64,000 bases of DNA from positions 1,426,001 through 1,490,000 of the forward strand of contig NZ_CP048113.1 of assembly GCF_010093065.1 (NCBI RefSeq). The letters run 5' to 3'. Every line of letters begins with the position of its first letter. The stretch's first letter is position 1. Under the pieces are notes generated by a model. That model was not told the origin of the DNA and did no database searches. It was given only the letters and a program-made list of their open reading frames with translations. This document shows, in pieces, positions 49,543 through 60,087 of the stretch. The position numbers were made by a program, and so were the translations under genes. This DNA comes from Chitinophaga agri. GTDB lineage: Bacteria; Bacteroidota; Bacteroidia; Chitinophagales; Chitinophagaceae.

Positions 49543-51000
49543 TTATCGCCATACCAGCGTCGCCACTGCCCCCGGCTGCAACGTATACGCCACCACCGAC
49601 TGCTCTTTTACAGAAAAACTCCTGGGCTCTTTAGTAGTATTGATCACCACCATCACACGCGAGCCATCCCTGTTCAGAAACGCTGTATTCTCAATTCCTT
49701 TATCCGCCAGCGCAGAAGAATAGATCCTCTTCGCGCCCGGACGTACGAACTTGCTAAAATGCGCTATCGCATAATATTCTACATTACGCGTCACACCACC
49801 GTCTTTGGAATTCACGGTTACCACACCACGACAAGTCATACAACCGCGATTCGCTTTTCCTTCACCCGGTTTGTTGGTCGTAGGACCATTATTCTCGTCC
49901 AATGCCATATTCCACAGCAACACATTCCTTGACCAGTTATTCACCGTGCCGATAAACAACTGACGTACCATATATTGAAGATTATCAGCAAATGCAGGTG
50001 ACCAGCTACCCCCGGAACACTCAGTGAAATAAAGCCCTTTCTCAGGGTGCGCATCATGTACCACAGACATCGCCCCAACAGCGCCTTCATAACAATGGAA
50101 AGCTGCACCAGCAGTATATTTCGCCATTGTGCTATCATTCAGTATGGAGATAGGATACTCCGGACTATTCCAGTTATGGTCAAACAGCATTATAGCAACC
50201 TGTTTGTTCAGTCCCTCCTGTGCCAGCAACGGGCCGAGGTGTTCTTTGATGAAAGTTCCCTGCTCCGGCGCTGTCATTTTCATGGTTGGATAAGCCGCTT
50301 CATATTGTGGCTCATTCTGCATCGTCAATGCAGTGATCTTCACACCAGCTGCCGCAAACGCACGAATGTATTTTACAAAGTAACGGGCATATACCGCATA
50401 GGCATCAGGACGCAATGATCCGCCTTCCAGTTTACCACTGGTCTTCATCCAGGCAGGCGCACTCCAGGGGCTACCCATGAGATGGATATCCGGATTGATA
50501 GCAAAGATCTGCTTTAACACAGGCACTACGTCTTTCTCATCATGCGCAATGCTGAAATGCGCCAGGGAATCATCGCGCTGTCCGGCAGCCATATCATCAT
50601 ACGTATACGGATCAGTGGAGAAATCAGAAGCACCTATAGACATACGGATATAATTGATCCCCAGTCCCTTGTCGGCGCTGAACAACTCTTCCAGCAATGC
50701 CTGACGCTTCTCAGGCGTCATATACTGCTGCATTACATACGCCGAAGAACCGGTAACAGACGCACCAAAGCCTTCAATCTCCTGAAACTGACGACTCGTA
50801 TCCATGGTGATATTGAGTGCTGCAGTGTCAGTTGCCTCCCCCAGTGACGCCTGTTGTGCAAATAATTGCTGCTGATCGGGCGTCGTCAGATATACAGCTA
50901 CAGCGTCACTGTGCTGGGTATCTCCCTGCTGTTGCCCATTGTTACAGGCGGCCAGGAAGGTGCTGATACAACAGGTATACATCCATAATTTCTTATTCAT
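49543..51000 (-). CDS. GH30-family glycoside hydrolase, lipoprotein
   Basis: 485 aa from ATG 51000 (a GTG at 51024 is rejected: the ATG begins a clean lipoprotein signal with lipobox LAAC). The TIM barrel shows EIEGFGASVTGSSAYV, INYIRMSIGASDFS and MGSPWSAPAWMKTSG. The acid/base is E230 in TMQNEPQYE and the nucleophile E327 in YFTECSGG, both typical of GH30. A beta-sandwich domain made of N- and C-terminal parts completes the fold. GH30 covers glucosylceramidase, beta-1,6-glucanase and related activities; the residues here fit the glucan and glucosylceramidase-like branch, but the substrate is inferred. It is third in a SusC-SusD-GH30 locus, surface or periplasmic. Confidence 0.93.
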   Translation of the reverse strand: MNKKLWMYTCCISTFLAACNNGQQQGDTQHSDAVAVYLTTPDQQQLFAQQASLGEATDTAALNITMDTSRQFQEIEGFGASVTGSSAYVMQQYMTPEKRQALLEELFSADKGLGINYIRMSIGASDFSTDPYTYDDMAAGQRDDSLAHFSIAHDEKDVVPVLKQIFAINPDIHLMGSPWSAPAWMKTSGKLEGGSLRPDAYAVYARYFVKYIRAFAAAGVKITALTMQNEPQYEAAYPTMKMTAPEQGTFIKEHLGPLLAQEGLNKQVAIMLFDHNWNSPEYPISILNDSTMAKYTAGAAFHCYEGAVGAMSVVHDAHPEKGLYFTECSGGSWSPAFADNLQYMVRQLFIGTVNNWSRNVLLWNMALDENNGPTTNKPGEGKANRGCMTCRGVVTVNSKDGGVTRNVEYYAIAHFSKFVRPGAKRIYSSALADKGIENTAFLNRDGSRVMVVINTTKEPRSFSVKEQSVVAYTLQPGAVATLVWR

Positions 51001-51036
51001 ACATCGATAGTTTTCTTGTAACACGCATTTACGGAT

Positions 51037-51103: not shown

Positions 51104-52582
51104 CTAATAGCCGGTGTTCTGCACCAGGTTGGCATTCTGGTCCATCTCGCTCTGAGGGATCGGCCACAGCAGGCGTGCTTCCGTCAGATGATAGCCCAGA
51201 TTGACGCCTTTACCATCTGTAACGGCCTGCATTACTGGTATGGCACGGTCGGTACGTACCAGGTCCTGCCAGCGGTTACCTTCAAACGCCAGCTCCAGGC
51301 GACGCTCTTTTTCTATTGCCAGGCGCATCGCTGCCTGATCAGTGATCTTCAGGTCTTTCAGATTGACGCGCTCGCGGATCTGTGTAACGATGGTGTTAGC
51401 CGCTGCCACATTACCCTGTTCGTTCAATGCTTCTGCTTTCAGCAGCAGTACATCTGCAAGACGGTACATGATGATGTTCTGGCTCGCATCTGTCTTACGT
51501 AATTTATAGAAGAACGGAAAACTGTCCAGTGGCAGACGTGCATCTCCCCATTTGCCATTCACGTTTGCAAAAGTGATCGTTGATTTGAAACGTACGGTGT
51601 CCTTTTCCAGCTGATAAGCACGCACAAGGTCGTTACTCGGATTACAGAATTTCTTCCAGTCAGTACCGAGGAACATGCTGGTGCCCCAGTTCCCACCGGT
51701 ATCCCAGCTATCGAAGTTCAGTTCGAAGATGGACTCGGCCGAGTTCTCATGTGCACCATCCCACAGATGATCATAAACCGGCAGCAAACTATACCCCAGC
51801 GCCATCACCTGGTTGGCATAGTTCTCTACCTGTTGCCAGTTCACAGGTTTATGGGTAGCCGCTACTTTAGCCAACAGGGTATACACCGCACCTTTCGTAA
51901 CATAGCCTTTGTTGACAGCAGTAGCAGGTACCGCTTCCACCGCAGCCTTGAGGTCCTCATCGATCTGTGCATAGATACTGTCTGCACTCTTACGCGCAGG
52001 ATACAGCAACGGGTATACTTCGTTCAGGTTATCTGATGTAATAGTAGGCAGTTCGGTCAGTACCAGTGGCACATCACCAAAGATCCTTACCAGATCAAAG
52101 TAGGCGCGTGCCCGGATGAACTTTGCCTCTCCGAGGATCTGTGCCTTACGGTTAGCAGATAAAGCAGGATCGGTCACGTTAGGTACGTTAGCGATCACGG
52201 AGTTACATGCCGTGATCTGATTGTACAGATACCCCCAGTCACGGCCTGCCCATGAATTGGTAGAGAGCAGGCGGAACTCGTCGATCTCAAAACCGGCCGC
52301 GTTATCTGCACCGGCGTAGGCATTATCAGACTGTGCTTCTGATATATTAAAATAATCAAGTACGTAGTATTCGGAAGACCCGCTACGGAAGTATGAGTAA
52401 CAGCTGGTAAGGGCCGCTTCCGCCGTAGTAGCGTCTTTAATGTAGGAACCTGCAGTGCCCTGTCCGCCGTTGCCAACGGTGGTATTAGACGGCGGAGTCA
52501 GGTTCAGGTCTTTATTACATGCACCCAGCGTCAGTGTCGCCAGTGCAGCGGATATGAGGAAGAGACGATTTGTTTTTTTCAT
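51104..52582 (-). CDS. SusD/RagB-family surface glycan-binding lipoprotein
   Basis: 492 aa. Lipoprotein signal with lipobox LGAC (about C22). SusD features: EAALTSCYSYFRSG, KFIRARAYFDLVRIFGDVPLV, IIMYRLADVLLLKAEALNEQGN, VTQIRERVNL and EKERRLELAFEGNRWQDLVRT. It works with the SusC protein encoded 11 bp upstream. Together with GH30 it forms a compact three-gene locus that probably takes up beta-linked glucan oligosaccharides (inference from GH30). No ECF sigma or anti-sigma pair is next to it. Confidence 0.97.
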   Translation of the reverse strand: MKKTNRLFLISAALATLTLGACNKDLNLTPPSNTTVGNGGQGTAGSYIKDATTAEAALTSCYSYFRSGSSEYYVLDYFNISEAQSDNAYAGADNAAGFEIDEFRLLSTNSWAGRDWGYLYNQITACNSVIANVPNVTDPALSANRKAQILGEAKFIRARAYFDLVRIFGDVPLVLTELPTITSDNLNEVYPLLYPARKSADSIYAQIDEDLKAAVEAVPATAVNKGYVTKGAVYTLLAKVAATHKPVNWQQVENYANQVMALGYSLLPVYDHLWDGAHENSAESIFELNFDSWDTGGNWGTSMFLGTDWKKFCNPSNDLVRAYQLEKDTVRFKSTITFANVNGKWGDARLPLDSFPFFYKLRKTDASQNIIMYRLADVLLLKAEALNEQGNVAAANTIVTQIRERVNLKDLKITDQAAMRLAIEKERRLELAFEGNRWQDLVRTDRAIPVMQAVTDGKGVNLGYHLTEARLLWPIPQSEMDQNANLVQNTGY

Positions 52583-52593
52583 AACTCAGGCGT

Positions 52594-55554
52594 TTAGAAT
52601 GACAGGTTTAAACCGAGGACGAAGGTTCTTGCTACCGGATAGGTACCGTAGTCAATACCCAGTGTTACACCATTGGCAGCATCACCCGCGTAAGCATTTA
52701 CTTCTGGATCGAAACCTTTGTATTTGGTAATAGTGAACAGGTTCTGTGCAGTTGCATACACCATTAAACGGCTCAGGTGCAGTGTGCTCAGGGCACGCTG
52801 TGGCAGGTTGTATGACAGGGTTGCACTCTTCATACGCAGGAAGGAGCCATTTTCAACGAAACGGGAGGAAGTACGGGAATTGGTTACGTCTCCGTTGGTC
52901 GCACGTGGGATGTCGGTCACCTGACCAGCTGCTCTCCAGCGACGCAGTACTTCGGTTGACTGGTTCTTGCTGTCGTACATACCTTCTGTTTCCATACGGG
53001 AAGCGTTGAACACTTCGTTCCCCTGTGAACCCTGGAACAGGAAAGACAATGACCAGTTCTTATATGCCAGGTTGTTATTCATACCGTAAGTAAAGCTAGG
53101 CTGTGCATTTCCAATCACGGTACGGTCTGTAGGCGTCACATTACCATCATTGTTGACATCTTTATAAATCACATCACCGGTTTTAGGATCTACACCTTCA
53201 GATACGTATCCGAAGAAGGTACCCAGTGGCAGTCCCTTTCTCAGGGTGATAATATAATCTCTGTTCTCTACAGCGGCATAGTTATATACCTGTGTCAGCT
53301 GCAGATCGGTAAGGCGGTTACGATTGAAAGCAATATTGAAATCAGTGCTCCAGCGAAGCCCATCCTTCTTATCAATATTAACTGTTGACACCAGGAACTC
53401 CAGACCTTTATTCTCCAGTGCACCAGAGTTACGTGGCATGTAGTCATACTCAGCGGATTGCGGGAATGGTACATTCAGCAGCAGATCTTTTGTTTTTTTG
53501 ATGTAAGCGTCCGCAGTGAAGGTCAGACGGGAATCAAAGAGACTCAGATCGATACCCACGTTGGTCTGTGTAGTCGTTTCCCATTTCAGGTCCGGATTTG
53601 GCGCACCTGGAGGCAGGGTGATACCAGGGCCTGACAGTGGACTGGTTGGCGTCTGGCGTACAAAGTTGTTCAAACCCAGAGAAGCATATGGGCTCAGTCC
53701 TTCTACGTTACCGTTCTGTCCCCAGCCCGCTCTTACCTTCAGGTCACTGATCGCTTTCACATCTTTCAGGAAAGGTTCAGCGGAAAGACGCCAGCCGGCA
53801 GATACAGACGGGAAGTAACCCCACTTGTGTTTCTTATCCAGTTTGGAAGAACCGTCAGCACGGAAGTTAACGGTCAACAGGTATTTGCTGTCGTAGTTAT
53901 ACATCACGCGACCCAGGTAAGACATCAGGAACCACTGTGATTCATAGGTATCGCCTACGATCTGGTTCGCAGCATTCAGGGTCTTTACTGTCGGATCAGC
54001 CGGGAAATCCCGACCTGTCTGATTAGTGACATCATAGTTATTCTTTTGCGAAGTCACACCACCCAGTGCGGAGATATTATGTTTCTTCCAGCTCTTATCA
54101 TAGTTCAGGGTATTCTCCCATAACCATGTCAGGGTGTTATAACGCTGAGAAGTAGCATAACCGTGATCCAGACGGCCCGGCGTGGTCATGATATAGTCCA
54201 GGTAGTAATCGTATTTATGATTGGTATAATCGATACCATAGTTAGTTCTGAACTTCAGGTCTTTGGTAAAGTTGATGTCCATGGCTGCATTACCCAGTAT
54301 ACGGTTATCCTTTGTTCCCTGTGTAGGACCTTCGATAGCAGCCAGCGGGTTATCCCAACCGGATTTATACGGGTTCATGGTATAGCGGCGGCGACCGTCA
54401 GCATCTGTTTCGTAGATCCCAATGATCGGAGGAGCATTCAAAGCACCCAGGATTGCCGCGTTACGGCCAGCATTTGCGTTATCCTTGACATCTTTCAGAT
54501 CTACATTGGAGTAACTGATATTAGTAGTTAGTTTCAGCCATGGTTTCAGCTGATTGTCCAGATTGGCGCGGAAAACACGACGGTTGTACTGTGCAGGTTT
54601 TACCATACCATCATCCTTGGTATATGCACCAGAGATGAAATATTTTGATTTCTCGCTACCACCGGAGGCTGACAACTGATAGTTCTGGTTTTTACCGGTA
54701 CGGAACACCTCATCCAGCCAGTTAGTGGTGGTAGTAGGTGTAACGACATTGAAACCCATTTCCTTCATCAGGTCATTGTACTGGGTCGCATCCAGTACAT
54801 CGATCTTCTTACCAATCCGGGATACACCATAATAAGTATTGAAATTGATCACGGCATCGCCCAGACGACCTCTTTTAGTAGTGATCAGCACAACACCATT
54901 TGAAGCCCTTGCACCATAGATAGCAGCGCTGGAGGCATCTTTCAGCACGGTGATCGTTTCTATATCGTTGGTGTTCAGGTCTCTTGTATCGGTGGTTGGC
55001 ACACCATCGATCACATATAAAGGTTCATTACCTGCCTGTACGGAAGTAGCACCACGTACCCTTACGGAGAAGGCAGCACCTGGTTTACCGGAAGGCTGTG
55101 TCACCTGTACACCAGCAGCTTTACCCTGGAGGGCAGCAGCCGTCTGTGTGATCGGACGTTCGGCGATATCTTTTGTGTTAACAGAGGCTACGGAAGTCGT
55201 AATGTCCCTCTTCTTCTGTGTGCCATATCCGATCACCACTACCTCTCCCAGATCAGTTTTAGTATCGGATAATGTGATGGTGAGCTGGGTACGGCCACCT
55301 ACGGCTACATCCTGTGTTTCATAACCTACATAGGAAAGTTCCAGTATGGCAGTGGGTGCCACCTGAATAGTAAAACTACCATCCGGCTGGCTGGCCGCTC
55401 CTTTAGAAGTCCCTTTGATCTTAATGGATACGCCGGGAAGAGAGTTGCCCTGCTTGTCCTGTACGTGTCCCTTTACTGTGATGTCCTGCTGTGCCATAGC
55501 AAAACTCCACAGTGCTAACAGCAATGCTGTCAGGAATGTTCCCCTTTTTTTCAT
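52594..55554 (-). CDS. SusC/RagA-family TonB-linked outer-membrane transporter
   Basis: 986 aa. Signal peptide (1-21), carboxypeptidase-D-like domain (about 25-100; VQDKQGNSLPGVSIKIKGT), TonB box EVVVIGYG, plug (TAAALQGKAAGVQVTQPSG, PLYVIDGVPTTDTRD, VLKDASSAAIYGARASNGVVLITTK) and a barrel ending in an aromatic residue (GLNLSF). It imports oligosaccharides across the outer membrane. It starts the SusC-SusD-GH30 operon; its 411-bp upstream region contains two perfect palindromes. Confidence 0.97.
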   Translation of the reverse strand: MKKRGTFLTALLLALWSFAMAQQDITVKGHVQDKQGNSLPGVSIKIKGTSKGAASQPDGSFTIQVAPTAILELSYVGYETQDVAVGGRTQLTITLSDTKTDLGEVVVIGYGTQKKRDITTSVASVNTKDIAERPITQTAAALQGKAAGVQVTQPSGKPGAAFSVRVRGATSVQAGNEPLYVIDGVPTTDTRDLNTNDIETITVLKDASSAAIYGARASNGVVLITTKRGRLGDAVINFNTYYGVSRIGKKIDVLDATQYNDLMKEMGFNVVTPTTTTNWLDEVFRTGKNQNYQLSASGGSEKSKYFISGAYTKDDGMVKPAQYNRRVFRANLDNQLKPWLKLTTNISYSNVDLKDVKDNANAGRNAAILGALNAPPIIGIYETDADGRRRYTMNPYKSGWDNPLAAIEGPTQGTKDNRILGNAAMDINFTKDLKFRTNYGIDYTNHKYDYYLDYIMTTPGRLDHGYATSQRYNTLTWLWENTLNYDKSWKKHNISALGGVTSQKNNYDVTNQTGRDFPADPTVKTLNAANQIVGDTYESQWFLMSYLGRVMYNYDSKYLLTVNFRADGSSKLDKKHKWGYFPSVSAGWRLSAEPFLKDVKAISDLKVRAGWGQNGNVEGLSPYASLGLNNFVRQTPTSPLSGPGITLPPGAPNPDLKWETTTQTNVGIDLSLFDSRLTFTADAYIKKTKDLLLNVPFPQSAEYDYMPRNSGALENKGLEFLVSTVNIDKKDGLRWSTDFNIAFNRNRLTDLQLTQVYNYAAVENRDYIITLRKGLPLGTFFGYVSEGVDPKTGDVIYKDVNNDGNVTPTDRTVIGNAQPSFTYGMNNNLAYKNWSLSFLFQGSQGNEVFNASRMETEGMYDSKNQSTEVLRRWRAAGQVTDIPRATNGDVTNSRTSSRFVENGSFLRMKSATLSYNLPQRALSTLHLSRLMVYATAQNLFTITKYKGFDPEVNAYAGDAANGVTLGIDYGTYPVARTFVLGLNLSF

Positions 55555-55965
55555 AATGTGACGGTACTTTAGTTTGTGGATAAGGATAATCCTTAGTATC
55601 AGTTTTAGATTTTGTTATAAGACAATAGTTGGAAATGAGTCACTCATATTCTGAACGGGATAGTGTTTCCATAACCTTTCACATAACATGAATTTCCATT
55701 TCATAACGATGCCCAGGCTTCCATTCAATTATTGCCAGGTTTCATATTGTAAAGATAGGGTGAGTTTGACAAACAACAATGGATTTGTTTTCACAAATAG
55801 CTGATTACGAGATGATTATGCGAAATCTGATACGCTTTGATACCATAATGAATTTCTCCCTGAAAAGCTTGATAATGAACGGATCAGCGTAGTTATGACG
55901 GATATCTTGCATAAGTCGGCTGATACGCTTCAGTACCTTTCAAAATAATTTCACTTTATTTCATT
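55555..55965 (-). promoter_or_regulatory. Upstream region of the second SusC gene with two palindromes
   Basis: No gene seen in 411 bp. Two perfect odd-length dyads lie close to the SusC start: TAAGGATAATCCTTA (55581-55595) and ATGAGTCACTCAT (55635-55647), 27 and 81 bp upstream of the ATG. Centres of one base exclude tight hairpins, so protein binding is more likely. No TAnnTTTG box was found, so the promoter is not located. Confidence 0.4.
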
Positions 55966-57888
55966 TCACTCAGCCTCTCTTTCGTCAAGTACCAGCAAAC
56001 TCCACCCCTGCCCGTTTGCCTGCCTCAGTTCCTTCTTCCGCTCGTCCATCATTTTCAAAATGCGGGTGGCATATGACCAGCAGGTACTTTGCCGGATGTC
56101 CAGAATTTCGGACAGCTTGTGAGACGATATCTTACCCTTGGTAGAGTACACCAGGAAGGTGAGATAGAATGCCTTATTGATCGGAATACGGATGTTCTGG
56201 TAAATAGTATAGGCAGTTGCCGATTCTTCATAACCACATTTGCTGCAACGACGGCTAAAAGGCTGATGACCTGCGTAATAATGATCATTATTACACTTAC
56301 GGCAACGAAAATCACCCGTCCATTTCAGATCGGACAGGAAGCGCAGACAACTTTCCTTATCAGGATAGATCTTACTAAACTCTTCAAAATCAAGCGTAGT
56401 AGACATCGCTCTTGCCCGTGTCACCTTCTCTACATTCGTCTGCAACTGCTGGTTGTCCTGCTCCAGCAGGGCGTTCATCCGCGTGATCTCAGCTGCCTGC
56501 GTTTCCAGCAGGGCATTATTCTTTAGTAACTCCTCATTCTGAGCGGCAATGATCCCAGCCTGCTCTGACAACTGTTTGGTCCGGGCAGCCACCTGTGCTT
56601 CCAGTTCCCGGTTCTGACTGTCTTTCAGCCGGGCATTCTCTGTCATCTGCCGGATCATCTGCCGGTGCGCCTTATCCCGCTTCTTCTTCAGCAAACGCAC
56701 TTTATCGCCTACAGCAAATGATAAAAAGAACATTTCAAGTATAAAACAGAAACTCAGACTATAATAACTAACAATGCCAAAATTCAGCCAGGTATACCCC
56801 AGCATAATAAAAAATTTCAACATGAAACCCACGAAAAGGAAACTGTACCCTAATACAAAGAAACGGGCAGGCCGGTATCCCCTGAGCCAGATGTAAATAC
56901 CGGTATAGAAGGCGACTGCCAGCGGCAACAGTTCGATAAACTTATAATTGAACCAATATGGATTAATGAACAGGCAACATAAAAAGTAGGCGCCGCGGGC
57001 GATGATCACTCCGGTGATCAGCTTATTCAGCAAGGGGGCCCGGGCCTTTACATGTAACAGACTGCTGGTGAACAATAATGCAAAAATGCTCATACTGAAC
57101 AGCGGCCAGGCAAAGGCATACTGGTTCCAGACCGGTGCATTGGGCCAGAGCCATTGATAGGCGATACCATCTGTACACATCTCATACAATACCACACTCA
57201 GGTTGTACAACACATAGTACAGGTACTGCCGCTGTCGCATGGCAATGAACATGATCAGGTTATAAAAGCTGAAGATGAAGATCATGCCATAAAAAATGCC
57301 GAAGGTCAGGTACTCGCTCAGTGCATAGGACACAAACCGGTCTATAGACCTGATCACAATGATCACATCGGCCGTCTGCCGGGAACTGATCCTGAAATAA
57401 TAGACTGCCTCGTCCTGCCGGTCATTATCCAGCGACAGTTCGAAATTCTTATGGTGGAACCAGCGTTGTGCAAAGGGATACTTATCGCCTACCTTTTCCT
57501 CCCGGTACCTACCGGCCGTGTCAGGGAGATAGGCGACAATATCATCGATCGTCTGATCAAAAAATTCGAGCAGGTAATATTTATGTGCCTCCCTGTTGTG
57601 CCGGATCTTAACGCGGAACCAAACCGGTCCTCCCAGATGCTGGTTCTGTGGTGTACTGACAGCACTGGGTTTAAAAAGGGCAGAAATACTGTCACTGCGC
57701 ACCTGGTTTAATGTTAACCGGCCAGATAGATCCTCCAGGTATTGAATCTCGTTATATGTAAAAATGTGCTCCCTTAACGCGGTATCGATCTGCACGACCT
57801 CCTGAGCATAGATAGCCTGTAGTCCTGTCGTCAGCAACAACACGAGGCATAGGGCTCTTAACTTCACTCCCTTTTTAATACTGTCCAT
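55966..57888 (-). CDS. 7TM-DISM membrane sensor fused to an IS1595-type zinc ribbon and HTH
   Basis: 640 aa. Order: signal peptide (1-29), periplasmic 7TMR-DISMED2-type sandwich (about 30-180; GGPVWFRVKI, YYLLEFFDQTIDDI), seven membrane helices (about 190-397), coiled coil (about 398-495), then a cytoplasmic module resembling the N-terminus of IS1595-family transposases: YPDKESCLRFLSDLKW, a zinc ribbon with C529, C532, C548 and C551, TIYQNIRIPINKAFY, and an HTH-like segment (GKISSHKLSEILDIRQSTCWSYATRIL). No DDE catalytic domain follows. The receptor family normally ends in kinase, cyclase or DNA-binding domains, so this end probably binds DNA or protein. It begins immediately after the TGA of the radical SAM gene, so translation is coupled. 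Confidence 0.85.
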   Translation of the reverse strand: MDSIKKGVKLRALCLVLLLTTGLQAIYAQEVVQIDTALREHIFTYNEIQYLEDLSGRLTLNQVRSDSISALFKPSAVSTPQNQHLGGPVWFRVKIRHNREAHKYYLLEFFDQTIDDIVAYLPDTAGRYREEKVGDKYPFAQRWFHHKNFELSLDNDRQDEAVYYFRISSRQTADVIIVIRSIDRFVSYALSEYLTFGIFYGMIFIFSFYNLIMFIAMRQRQYLYYVLYNLSVVLYEMCTDGIAYQWLWPNAPVWNQYAFAWPLFSMSIFALLFTSSLLHVKARAPLLNKLITGVIIARGAYFLCCLFINPYWFNYKFIELLPLAVAFYTGIYIWLRGYRPARFFVLGYSFLFVGFMLKFFIMLGYTWLNFGIVSYYSLSFCFILEMFFLSFAVGDKVRLLKKKRDKAHRQMIRQMTENARLKDSQNRELEAQVAARTKQLSEQAGIIAAQNEELLKNNALLETQAAEITRMNALLEQDNQQLQTNVEKVTRARAMSTTLDFEEFSKIYPDKESCLRFLSDLKWTGDFRCRKCNNDHYYAGHQPFSRRCSKCGYEESATAYTIYQNIRIPINKAFYLTFLVYSTKGKISSHKLSEILDIRQSTCWSYATRILKMMDERKKELRQANGQGWSLLVLDEREAE

Positions 57889-60087
57889 TCACAATTTCAA
57901 AAGTCCGAATTTATACAGTGAATTTACCGGTTTATTGTCCCAGAACAGTTCAAAATCCTCCAGACCAGCAGCCTCGTAACTGTCCATTACCTCTTTCAGC
58001 GTATAGGTCTTCTGATTACGGACAGATAGCTTATCCAGCATATCCGCCAGCCAGATGCCTTCTTCTTTATTAACGCTGATACTGGCTTTTTCCTTGCGGC
58101 TCTGGAAAGTCAGCGAGGTCACCTCCCAGGAATTACCTTTTTTCGTCTTGGTGATAGTCTGCACAACAGGCTTTTTTCCCAGCCACACTACCTTACTGGT
58201 CGGCTTGGAGGGGGCGTACTGGTCTTCCTGCAATGCTTTCTCTATATAATCAGGTGCAATCCTGGTCTTAGGCGTTTTAAACTCGAACCATTTCTGCAGG
58301 GGATCGTCCAGACAGATGCCATGCATATAGTTGAGGAGGGATTTTTTGAGGCCGTACGCAAACTGCTCATGTTCCGCTCCCGTCTCATCGATATGTACAA
58401 TATCATTATTGGCGAAAGCCCCGATGACTTCGGTCTCTTTTTTCACACTGAACTTCTCGGGCGCCTGTCCCACCGGACTATGGGCCGTCATGGTGAACTG
58501 GTGCCAGAATGCAGACTGCATAATACCCGTCTTAAACATCTGTCGTACCATTTCAAGAGAGTCGATGGTTTCCTGAGCGGTCTGCGTTGGGAACCCGTAC
58601 ATCAGGTAGGCGTGTACCATAATACCGGCCTCGGTAAAGTTACGGTTCACCTGGGCCACCTGGGCTACTGTGATCCCTTTCTGTATGAGTTCGAGCAGTC
58701 TGTCGGACGCTACTTCCAGTCCGCCGGAGACGGCAATACAGCCGGACTCCTTTAGCAACAGGCAAAGATCACGTGTAAAGCTTTTTTCGAAACGGACATT
58801 GGTCCACCAGCTGACATTCAGCTTTCTCTTCAATATTTCGAGTGCCAGCGCACGCATCAATGCAGGTGGTGCGGCTTCATCCACAAAGTGGAAACCATTC
58901 TGACCGGTTTGTGCGATGATCTCTTCCATCCGGTCGCACAGAAGCTGTGCTGCAATCGGCTCATATAAACGAATGTAGTCAAGTGAGATATCGCAGAATG
59001 TACATTTACCCCAGTAACAGCCGTGTGCCATGGTCAGCTTGTTCCATCTGCCGTCACTCCACATGCGATGCATGGGATTAACCACCTCAATAGCGGAAAT
59101 GTAGCTGTCCAGCAGGAAATCGCTATAGTCAGGTGTACCTACCTGTGACTGCTTATAATCGGCACAGCTTTTATCGTTGATATACGTGACCTGGTCATCT
59201 ACGAGGGTGAAAGTGCGTTTAAGATCACTCACTTCCTTTTTCCCTTCTATATGTGCCACCAGGTTCTCCAGCGGCGCTTCCCCATCGTCCAGTGCGATAA
59301 AATCATAGAACTCGAACACACGGGTGTCGGTCAGCGAGCGCAGTTCGGTGTTAGCAAAGCCACCTCCCATTGCAATCTTAACATCGGGATAATTGGCCTT
59401 GATCCATTGTCCACAGCGGAGTGAAGTATATAAATTGCCTGGAAAAGGCACAGAAATAGCCACCAGCTTAGGCAGTACATTCGCCATGTGCCGCGACAGT
59501 ATATCGATGAGGATACGATCTATGAAAGTATATTCCTCCTGAAGGGCCTCATAGAGTTCATCGAAACTATTGGCAGAACGGGCCAGTTTCTCCGCATAAC
59601 GGCTGAAACCAAAGTGCTCGTCTACACACTCCATGATCAGGTCGGACAAGTCTTCCAGGTACATCGTAGCCAGGTGTTTGGCTTTGTCCTGGGTACCCAT
59701 TGAACCGAAGGCCCAGTCCAGGTCCTCCAGCTGGGCAAAGCGGCCGGCTTCCGGCAGGAAATCGCGTTTGCAGATGCGATGTGCAAGGGTCGGATTCTTT
59801 CCCTGGAGGAAAAGGATGACGTCGTCAATAGTCTCTATATAATCCTCCTGCAGAGTGATGATCCGGGAGATGTTCTCAGAACGTTCATCAGACTGGCTGT
59901 TGATGAGGTTAAAAAGTTCCTGCAGACCCTGTTTGCTGAACAGGGCCAGGGTTACCTCTATACCGAGGTCGGACTGGAAAGAGGTAATACCTTTGGTATT
60001 TAAAAAGCCTTTCAGGTAGGCTGTAGCCGGATATGGCGTATTCAGCTGAGTGAAAGGCGGTGTAATCAGGAAAACAGATGCACCCAA
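57889..60087 (-). CDS. B12-binding-domain radical SAM protein
   Basis: 732 aa starting at TTG 60087. No ATG lies nearby, an in-frame TAG is at 60096-60094, and a strong promoter at 60107-60139 leaves room only for a very short leader, so TTG (or ATT at 60093) must serve. The N-terminal cobalamin-binding-like region (about 1-310) shows FLITPPFTQLNTPYP, VAISVPFPGNLY and AMGGGFANTELR. The radical SAM domain carries HGCYWGKCTFCD (C357-x4-C362-x2-C365; the usual spacing is x3, x2), then HFVDEAAPP, SGGLEVASDRLLELIQKG and YLMYGFPTQT. Substrate unknown; the family includes methylases and ring-forming enzymes. It is coupled to the 7TM-DISM sensor (stop and start adjacent). Confidence 0.88.
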   Translation of the reverse strand: MGASVFLITPPFTQLNTPYPATAYLKGFLNTKGITSFQSDLGIEVTLALFSKQGLQELFNLINSQSDERSENISRIITLQEDYIETIDDVILFLQGKNPTLAHRICKRDFLPEAGRFAQLEDLDWAFGSMGTQDKAKHLATMYLEDLSDLIMECVDEHFGFSRYAEKLARSANSFDELYEALQEEYTFIDRILIDILSRHMANVLPKLVAISVPFPGNLYTSLRCGQWIKANYPDVKIAMGGGFANTELRSLTDTRVFEFYDFIALDDGEAPLENLVAHIEGKKEVSDLKRTFTLVDDQVTYINDKSCADYKQSQVGTPDYSDFLLDSYISAIEVVNPMHRMWSDGRWNKLTMAHGCYWGKCTFCDISLDYIRLYEPIAAQLLCDRMEEIIAQTGQNGFHFVDEAAPPALMRALALEILKRKLNVSWWTNVRFEKSFTRDLCLLLKESGCIAVSGGLEVASDRLLELIQKGITVAQVAQVNRNFTEAGIMVHAYLMYGFPTQTAQETIDSLEMVRQMFKTGIMQSAFWHQFTMTAHSPVGQAPEKFSVKKETEVIGAFANNDIVHIDETGAEHEQFAYGLKKSLLNYMHGICLDDPLQKWFEFKTPKTRIAPDYIEKALQEDQYAPSKPTSKVVWLGKKPVVQTITKTKKGNSWEVTSLTFQSRKEKASISVNKEEGIWLADMLDKLSVRNQKTYTLKEVMDSYEAAGLEDFELFWDNKPVNSLYKFGLLKL

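Follow-up and report, generated by a model that had tools for sequence, protein, structure and literature searches.

A 7TMR-DISM Membrane Sensor Fused to an IS1595-Type DNA-Binding End, a Probable Regulator of Polysaccharide Utilization Loci in Bacteroidota

Introduction

Among the regulators described to date, those closest in build to the protein considered here are the SusR-like regulators (DUF6377; SusR, BT3309/SusR3), which are likewise membrane proteins with a periplasmic sensor and a cytoplasmic DNA-binding end. From the portions of the published descriptions consulted, SusR-like genes adjoin SusC-SusD genes, and BT3309 precedes a SusC-SusD-GH30 set. The operators predicted for them there consist of direct repeats with a spacing of 67 or 77 bp (PMC3878776, PMC5481569), two values that differ by one turn of the helix (PMC3878776). 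Hybrid two-component systems (HTCS) are also membrane-spanning, single-chain sensor-regulators of polysaccharide utilization loci (PULs), built with kinase, receiver, and AraC domains. In the 7TMR-DISM receptors (RetS, LadS, NicD), a DISMED2 domain and a seven-helix domain are coupled to a kinase or a diguanylate cyclase as output; the DISMED2 domain of NicD is reported as carbohydrate-binding in an excerpt of PMC8544897. Lastly, the combination of a zinc ribbon and a helix-turn-helix (HTH) is found in IS1595 transposases.

A gene whose product unites features of all these systems can be found in the window, i.e., the whole stretch of 64,000 nucleotides of Chitinophaga agri DNA that was analyzed (Table 1). 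The product shares the DISMED2 and seven-helix domains with the 7TMR-DISM receptors but differs from them by its output, a predicted DNA-binding unit, which is aligned with IS1595 transposases through both zinc ribbon and HTH. As in the 1,6-beta-glucan PUL of Bacteroides thetaiotaomicron (BT3309-BT3314), the order in the window is regulator, SusC, SusD, and GH30. No account of a 7TMR-DISM/IS1595 fusion as a regulator was found in open-licence papers, and database names for the relatives range from hypothetical to LadS, transposase, and chromosome partitioning protein ParA; for this family, a putative function, presumed target genes, and a testable candidate operator are proposed below.

Table 1. 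Features of the fusion gene and of its presumed targets in the window.
Feature	Position	Strand	Basis or remark
Fusion gene, 640 aa	55966..57888	-	7TMR-DISMED2, seven membrane helices, long helix, IS1595-type zinc ribbon and HTH
7TMR-DISMED2 periplasmic sensor domain, residues 47-179	57352..57750	-	Pfam PF07696, E 1.1e-27
7TMR-DISM_7TM seven-helix domain, residues 192-396	56701..57315	-	PF07695, E 6.2e-44; model helices
Predicted long linker helix, membrane to DNA-binding domain, residues 397-494	56407..56700	-	AlphaFold2 model
IS1595-type zinc ribbon, residues 510-553 (C529, C532, C548, C551)	56230..56361	-	Pfam and alignment
IS1595-type HTH segment, residues 567-620	56029..56190	-	NCBIfam NF033547, profile comparison, model
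Far direct repeat GGTACTGAAGCGTATCA, candidate operator	55921..55937	-	
Near direct repeat GGTATCAAAGCGTATCA, candidate operator	55828..55844	-	93 bp from far repeat
TATCTTTA, candidate -7 element of susC promoter	55750..55757	-	Aligned in 20 genus loci
susC-like TonB-dependent receptor, presumed target	52594..55554	-	
susD-like lipoprotein, presumed target	51104..52582	-	
GH30 glycoside hydrolase, presumed target	49543..51024	-	Closest solved structure 5ngk (BT3312, endo-1,6-beta-glucanase)

Architecture and Spread of the Fusion Protein

The fusion gene is a single, unbroken frame with an ATG start. A first-pass annotation of this DNA had proposed a DISMED2-like domain followed by seven membrane helices, and both 7TMR-DISM profiles do find a match within residues 30-400. 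The AlphaFold2 model of the whole protein (65 sequences; mean pLDDT 81.0, pTM 0.59) agrees, with strands in residues 40-181, seven membrane-type helices from residue 182 on, one helix spanning residues 372-494, of low confidence at 468-498 (pLDDT <50), and a compact C-terminal unit with ribbon and HTH elements in residues 537-616. When this unit was modeled alone (31 sequences), the pLDDT was 87.1 and the HTH was formed by helices 76-88, 95-102, and 106-122 (unit numbering). In a fold search with the whole model, the top solved structures were two of the RetS periplasmic domain (2xbz and 3jyb, E 6.6e-6 and 7.6e-6), the only matches below 0.001, with weaker GH2 enzymes coming next. Unlike in HTCS, no histidine kinase, receiver, or AraC domain was matched by Pfam in the fusion protein. 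Sensor, membrane part, and predicted DNA-binding domain all lie in one chain, in keeping with the earlier description of the protein as a membrane-tethered one-component sensor.

Regarding its spread, 2063 homologs were counted, and the names among the 120 listed include Chitinophaga, Pedobacter, Dyadobacter, and Filimonas. The cysteines C529, C532, C548, and C551 are kept in all 122 aligned sequences (the query, its own-genome paralog, and the 120 listed of the 2063 homologs), which are likewise of the same length. In a scan of the genus, an ortholog was found in 26 of the 79 genomes (C-terminal part 66-100% identical) and a paralog in 10 of the 79 (48-54% identical). For the comparison of loci, every fusion match whose open frame reached about 600 aa was kept, giving 55 loci and, with the window, 56. 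Both CxxC pairs are present in 56/56, and the survey of other Bacteroidota that had been suggested at first pass extends the fusion over several families.

Origin of the DNA-Binding End

The derivation of the C-terminus from the N-terminal part of an IS1595 transposase, put forward in the first-pass annotation, is borne out by profiles and alignment alike. The Pfam profile Zn_ribbon_IS1595 matches the ribbon with 26.8 bits in the whole protein, just above its cut-off of 25.4, and with 30.8 bits when residues 495-640 are scored alone, so that an IS1595-type zinc ribbon is indeed recognized within residues 500-640. The NCBIfam profile transpos_IS1595 (NF033547) matches the HTH segment with 26.1 bits (E 6.8e-6), below a cut-off of 75 bits that is set for whole transposases. 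When a profile of the C-terminal domain was compared with one of nine IS1595-type proteins bearing the DDE motif, a probability of 100 and, for this single comparison, an E of 6.1e-42 were obtained, and the fusion C-terminus can be aligned to the transposase N-terminus over 123 columns with zero gaps. The nearest stand-alone match outside the fusions (L222; E 3.1e-33, with 42% of residues identical to those of the query domain) is a true IS1595 transposase, scoring 160.5 bits with NF033547 (cut-off 75) and 83.9 bits with DDE_Tnp_IS1595. Although L222 displays this DDE domain, the fusion protein has no Pfam match to PF12762, and the DDE part of the NCBIfam profile is likewise unmatched, as the annotation had stated.

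A tree was built from 82 domains, namely the 56 fusion domains and 26 stand-alone IS1595-type proteins picked by similarity to the fusion domain, the first catalytic motif being visible in only 11 of the latter (two of the 11 by eye). All 56 fusion domains fall on one side of one branch (support 100/96, in a tree for which the tool flags long branches and few columns), which fits one domestication, and they are nested among the stand-alone domains if midpoint rooting is followed and the root put on the long branches of the IS1595 side. Judged from these sequence comparisons, the DNA-binding part derives from an IS1595 transposase of which the DDE domain was lost. In contrast to IS1595 transposases, the fusion lacks this domain and is fixed in a PUL; copy number and context do not correspond to a mobile, multi-copy element, since the two copies in the own genome have diverged (47% identity) and sit in separate contexts, each of them conserved.

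Some features of the relatives can be mentioned here. A conserved GWSxLV tail occupies residues 628-637 of the fusion protein, where transposases start the strand of the first catalytic Asp (VEVDE), and, judged by eye, it may be a remnant of that strand. In genome G162, the 12/12 copies fetched from 13 matches (L123-L134) are IS1595-like proteins of about 300-340 aa that lack the V-x-V-D-E catalytic start, some being 97% alike with inverted ends (L130/L132); they are possibly a non-classical or trans-mobilized family. In G340, G347, and G348, 79-aa ORFs match the IS1595 zinc-ribbon part alone, with 31-36% identity, and are perhaps small stand-alone relatives.

Association With Polysaccharide Utilization Loci

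Going by its neighbors, the fusion gene is part of a PUL, upstream of SusC-SusD-GH30, a context that the first-pass annotation did not include. For the window GH30, BT3312 (5ngk) is the best solved match, with 304.9 bits. A SusC gene or a GH30, GH3, GH5, GH144, or GH2 gene lies within five ORFs in 51/56 fusion loci, and a GH81 gene is next door in 3/3 loci of group f81; together, 54/56 loci (window included) thus adjoin SusC or glycoside hydrolases (GH30, GH3, GH144, GH81, and others). As for the two remaining loci, in L094 a GH20 gene is found two genes upstream and the candidate target lies 14 kb away, and in L105 no PUL gene was recognized nearby, the one neighbor examined being a PPIase. 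The background for such linkage in the own genome is 74 SusD genes in 7.97 Mb.

A same-strand SusC gene within the next four ORFs is found in 38/56 loci, distributed as 25/26 in genus group 1, 3/5 in the other f1 loci, 2/3 in f3, 3/3 in f9, and 5/5 in f8, with 0/10 in the paralog group, 0/3 in f81, and 0/1 in f2. In the paralog loci, the neighbors are an outer-membrane protein and a GH30 protein of 602-604 aa (10/10). Only SusC, SusD, and hydrolase genes recur across the fusion loci, which have no other regulator gene in common. A radical SAM gene (57889-60087, minus strand) ends one base before the ATG of the fusion gene in the window; as a relative occurs at that place in 12/56 loci, it is not a core partner. 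The GH30 protein of the paralog (L120:10267-12075) has a C-terminal DUF7910/fascin-like module, unlike the window GH30.

A Candidate Operator in the Genus

When the intergenic regions of the genus loci were aligned, two 17-bp direct repeats were found before susC in 20/20. The exact word GGTAnnnAAnCGTATCA has three sites in the own genome (7,969,925 bp), two of which are the window pair, and a control word has zero. As a strict pattern, the repeat pair occurs once each in 23 of the 26 genus genomes with an ortholog and in 0/53 without one, and a reversed-pattern control gave 0/79; for this co-occurrence, the Fisher value of 5e-17 treats genomes as independent and overstates the evidence, since the ortholog-bearing genomes are related to one another. 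The three ortholog genomes missed by the strict pattern hold a weaker pair, with one mismatch in G309, two mismatches in G327, and a score of 17/20 by the degenerate core in G302. The pair is not tied to the 3' end of the gene: in G373, about 14 kb separate the fusion gene from a SusC-SusD-GH30 set, and the pair is found before the susC of this set, at a distance of about 160 bp.

The Bacteroidota -7 consensus is of the TAnnTTTG type. In 7/9 loci examined, the core of the near repeat lies 77-78 bp from a TAnnTTTR element, which is absent in the other two, and from this position an upstream activator is inferred. The 17-bp word can hold GTATCA twice at a distance of 10 bp, so that each word may take two units.

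Looser patterns are not specific. A loose CGTATCA pair is found in 63/79 genus genomes, and a loose degenerate pair has 8 matches in the own genome, both expected places among them, vs. 5 in a reversed control. When direct repeats of 17 bp with a spacing of 80-100 bp were searched for blindly, whatever their sequence, only 5/26 loci stood clearly above shuffles (shuffles reaching the score per 100: window 1, L079 0, L096 2, L103 0, L104 0), with 3 for L220, 6 for L216, and more for the rest.

The first-pass annotation had supposed that a fixed DNA motif is possibly recognized. For this, the paired repeats before susC are a strong candidate, but a resemblance to transposon ends did not emerge: they are unlike the terminal inverted repeats of the G348 element (from its two copies, L228/L229) and of the L223 element (23-nt inverted repeats), the two IS1595 relatives with definable ends, and thus are not the ancestral transposon end. 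Element ends were also looked for around L222 and not found.

Two more conserved elements can be seen in the promoters of the window (55750-55930) and of L113-L122. One, TTATCA-like, lies between the repeats; the other, AATCAGnTnTTTGTG (AATCAG...TTTGTG), follows the near repeat and is common to the genus and paralog groups.

Related Repeats in Other Groups

For the other groups, a degenerate core, AAGYGTATYA, was searched for twice, 74-96 bp apart, with at least 18/20 letters. Such a pair is present at the expected promoter in 37/56 loci, namely 22/26 in genus group 1, 5/5 in the other f1 loci, 2/3 in f3, and 8/10 in the paralog group, the counts in the genus and paralog groups not being independent, as 20 genus loci had served to derive the motif and, together with the paralog group, to define the core. 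It was found in 0/5 f8, 0/3 f9, 0/3 f81, and 0/1 f2 loci, nor in L215, and promoter alignments of the f8, f9, and f81 loci display no pair. A few extra pairs occur elsewhere, e.g., inside L109, and none occurs in the 1,483,142 bp of 80 named BT3312-like loci from other Bacteroidota. In the f9 loci (L107, L108, L220), one ACGTGTG....AAGYGTATAA site, without a second copy, precedes the target gene (3/3).

The spacing of the pair, 93 bp in the window, is 88-93 bp in most other loci. In the paralog group, the pair before the group's own GH30 gene consists of AAGTGTATTA and AAGTGnATTA, 88-89 bp apart, and the spacing is one helical turn less, 78-79 bp, in L116, L118, and L122; spacings thus differ by one turn within this group as they do among the predicted SusR-like operators. 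The HTH segment is near-identical between the genus and paralog groups (RQSTCWSYATR and RQGTCWAYATR) and more distant in f8, which fits a motif that the genus and paralog groups share and f8 lacks. The RQxTCW residues are kept in f9 and f81, yet without the pair.

Proposed Mode of Action and Alternatives

Taken together, the fusion protein is very probably a membrane-tethered one-component regulator of the adjacent PUL, acting via the paired repeats on susC-susD-GH30. The domain make-up, IS1595 origin, PUL linkage, and co-occurrence of repeats and gene can be read from the sequences; DNA binding, dimerization, the ligand, and activation rather than repression are inferred. The periplasmic DISMED2 domain would sense a sugar, most likely a beta-glucan oligosaccharide of the kind imported by the SusC-SusD pair, and the signal would pass through the seven membrane helices and the long helix, which may mediate dimerization, to the C-terminal units. 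Two or more zinc-ribbon-HTH units would then bind the paired direct repeats on the same DNA face upstream of susC, and the bound regulator would turn on susC-susD-GH30.

That the protein is instead a repressor, or responds to a ligand other than a beta-glucan product, is possible though rather unlikely. The neighboring enzymes do vary (GH30, GH3, GH5, GH2, GH144, GH81), which leaves room for another ligand, but several of these families include beta-glucanases. Regarding repression, about 77 bp separate the near repeat from the candidate -7 element downstream of it, activators usually occupying such an upstream position, and the analogue SusR is an activator according to the part of PMC3878776 consulted. 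Far less probable is that the repeats are the operator of another regulator of such loci and that the fusion protein acts otherwise, e.g., on protein partners. A zinc ribbon by itself could have other binding targets, and the same promoters hold two further conserved elements; against this stand the restriction of the pair to genomes with the gene (0/53 without), the lack of any other regulator gene common to the fusion loci, and the paralog, whose HTH and the core before its own presumed target gene are both near-identical to those seen here. A functionless chance join of a sensor gene and a decayed transposase, or an artefactual join of two genes, can be practically dismissed, even if databases call some relatives transposase or chromosome partitioning protein ParA, given the equal length and four cysteines in 122/122 aligned sequences, the occurrence in 56 loci over several families, the single tree branch, and the conservation of HTH residues and genetic linkage.

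With the fusion protein read as a regulator of its PUL, the family is likely a further class of PUL regulators beside the SusR-like, HTCS, and ECF sigma/anti-sigma types. It would have arisen once, by joining of an IS1595 DNA-binding end to a 7TMR-DISM receptor, have travelled with beta-glucan loci into several families of the Bacteroidota, and, held at the membrane, read long-spaced direct repeats by convergence with the presumed way of SusR, each subgroup with its own DNA word. If so, one more regulator type would be added to the three listed for Bacteroidetes glycan loci in the consulted part of PMC3878776, and a transposase DNA-binding domain would have been recruited to a membrane receptor.

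Comparison With SusR-Like Regulators at GH30 Loci

Kinship with SusR was considered and rejected, as the fusion protein has neither BLASTP similarity to a SusR3-like protein (L135) nor a DUF6377 match. The L135 protein, in turn, has DUF6377 and TPR matches, not 7TMR-DISM ones, and is devoid of the IS1595 ribbon-HTH. Long-spaced direct repeats at a SusC promoter are common to both, which is a likeness of working and not of descent, and in the best reading the fusion regulator is analogous, not homologous, to SusR. As both are membrane-anchored with repeats far apart and are unrelated, the need for such a geometry becomes testable.

A scan with BT3312 yielded 80 named loci with similar GH30 genes; the fusion is found in 0/80 of them and a SusR3-like (L135-like) ORF in 54/80, several of the remaining 26 being short contigs. 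With the fusion at one set of GH30 loci and SusR3-like ORFs at the other, the same locus type would be run by two unrelated regulators. In one locus (L167:14571-16715), a 714-aa 7TMR-DISM protein without a DNA-binding end adjoins the BT3312-like GH30 set.
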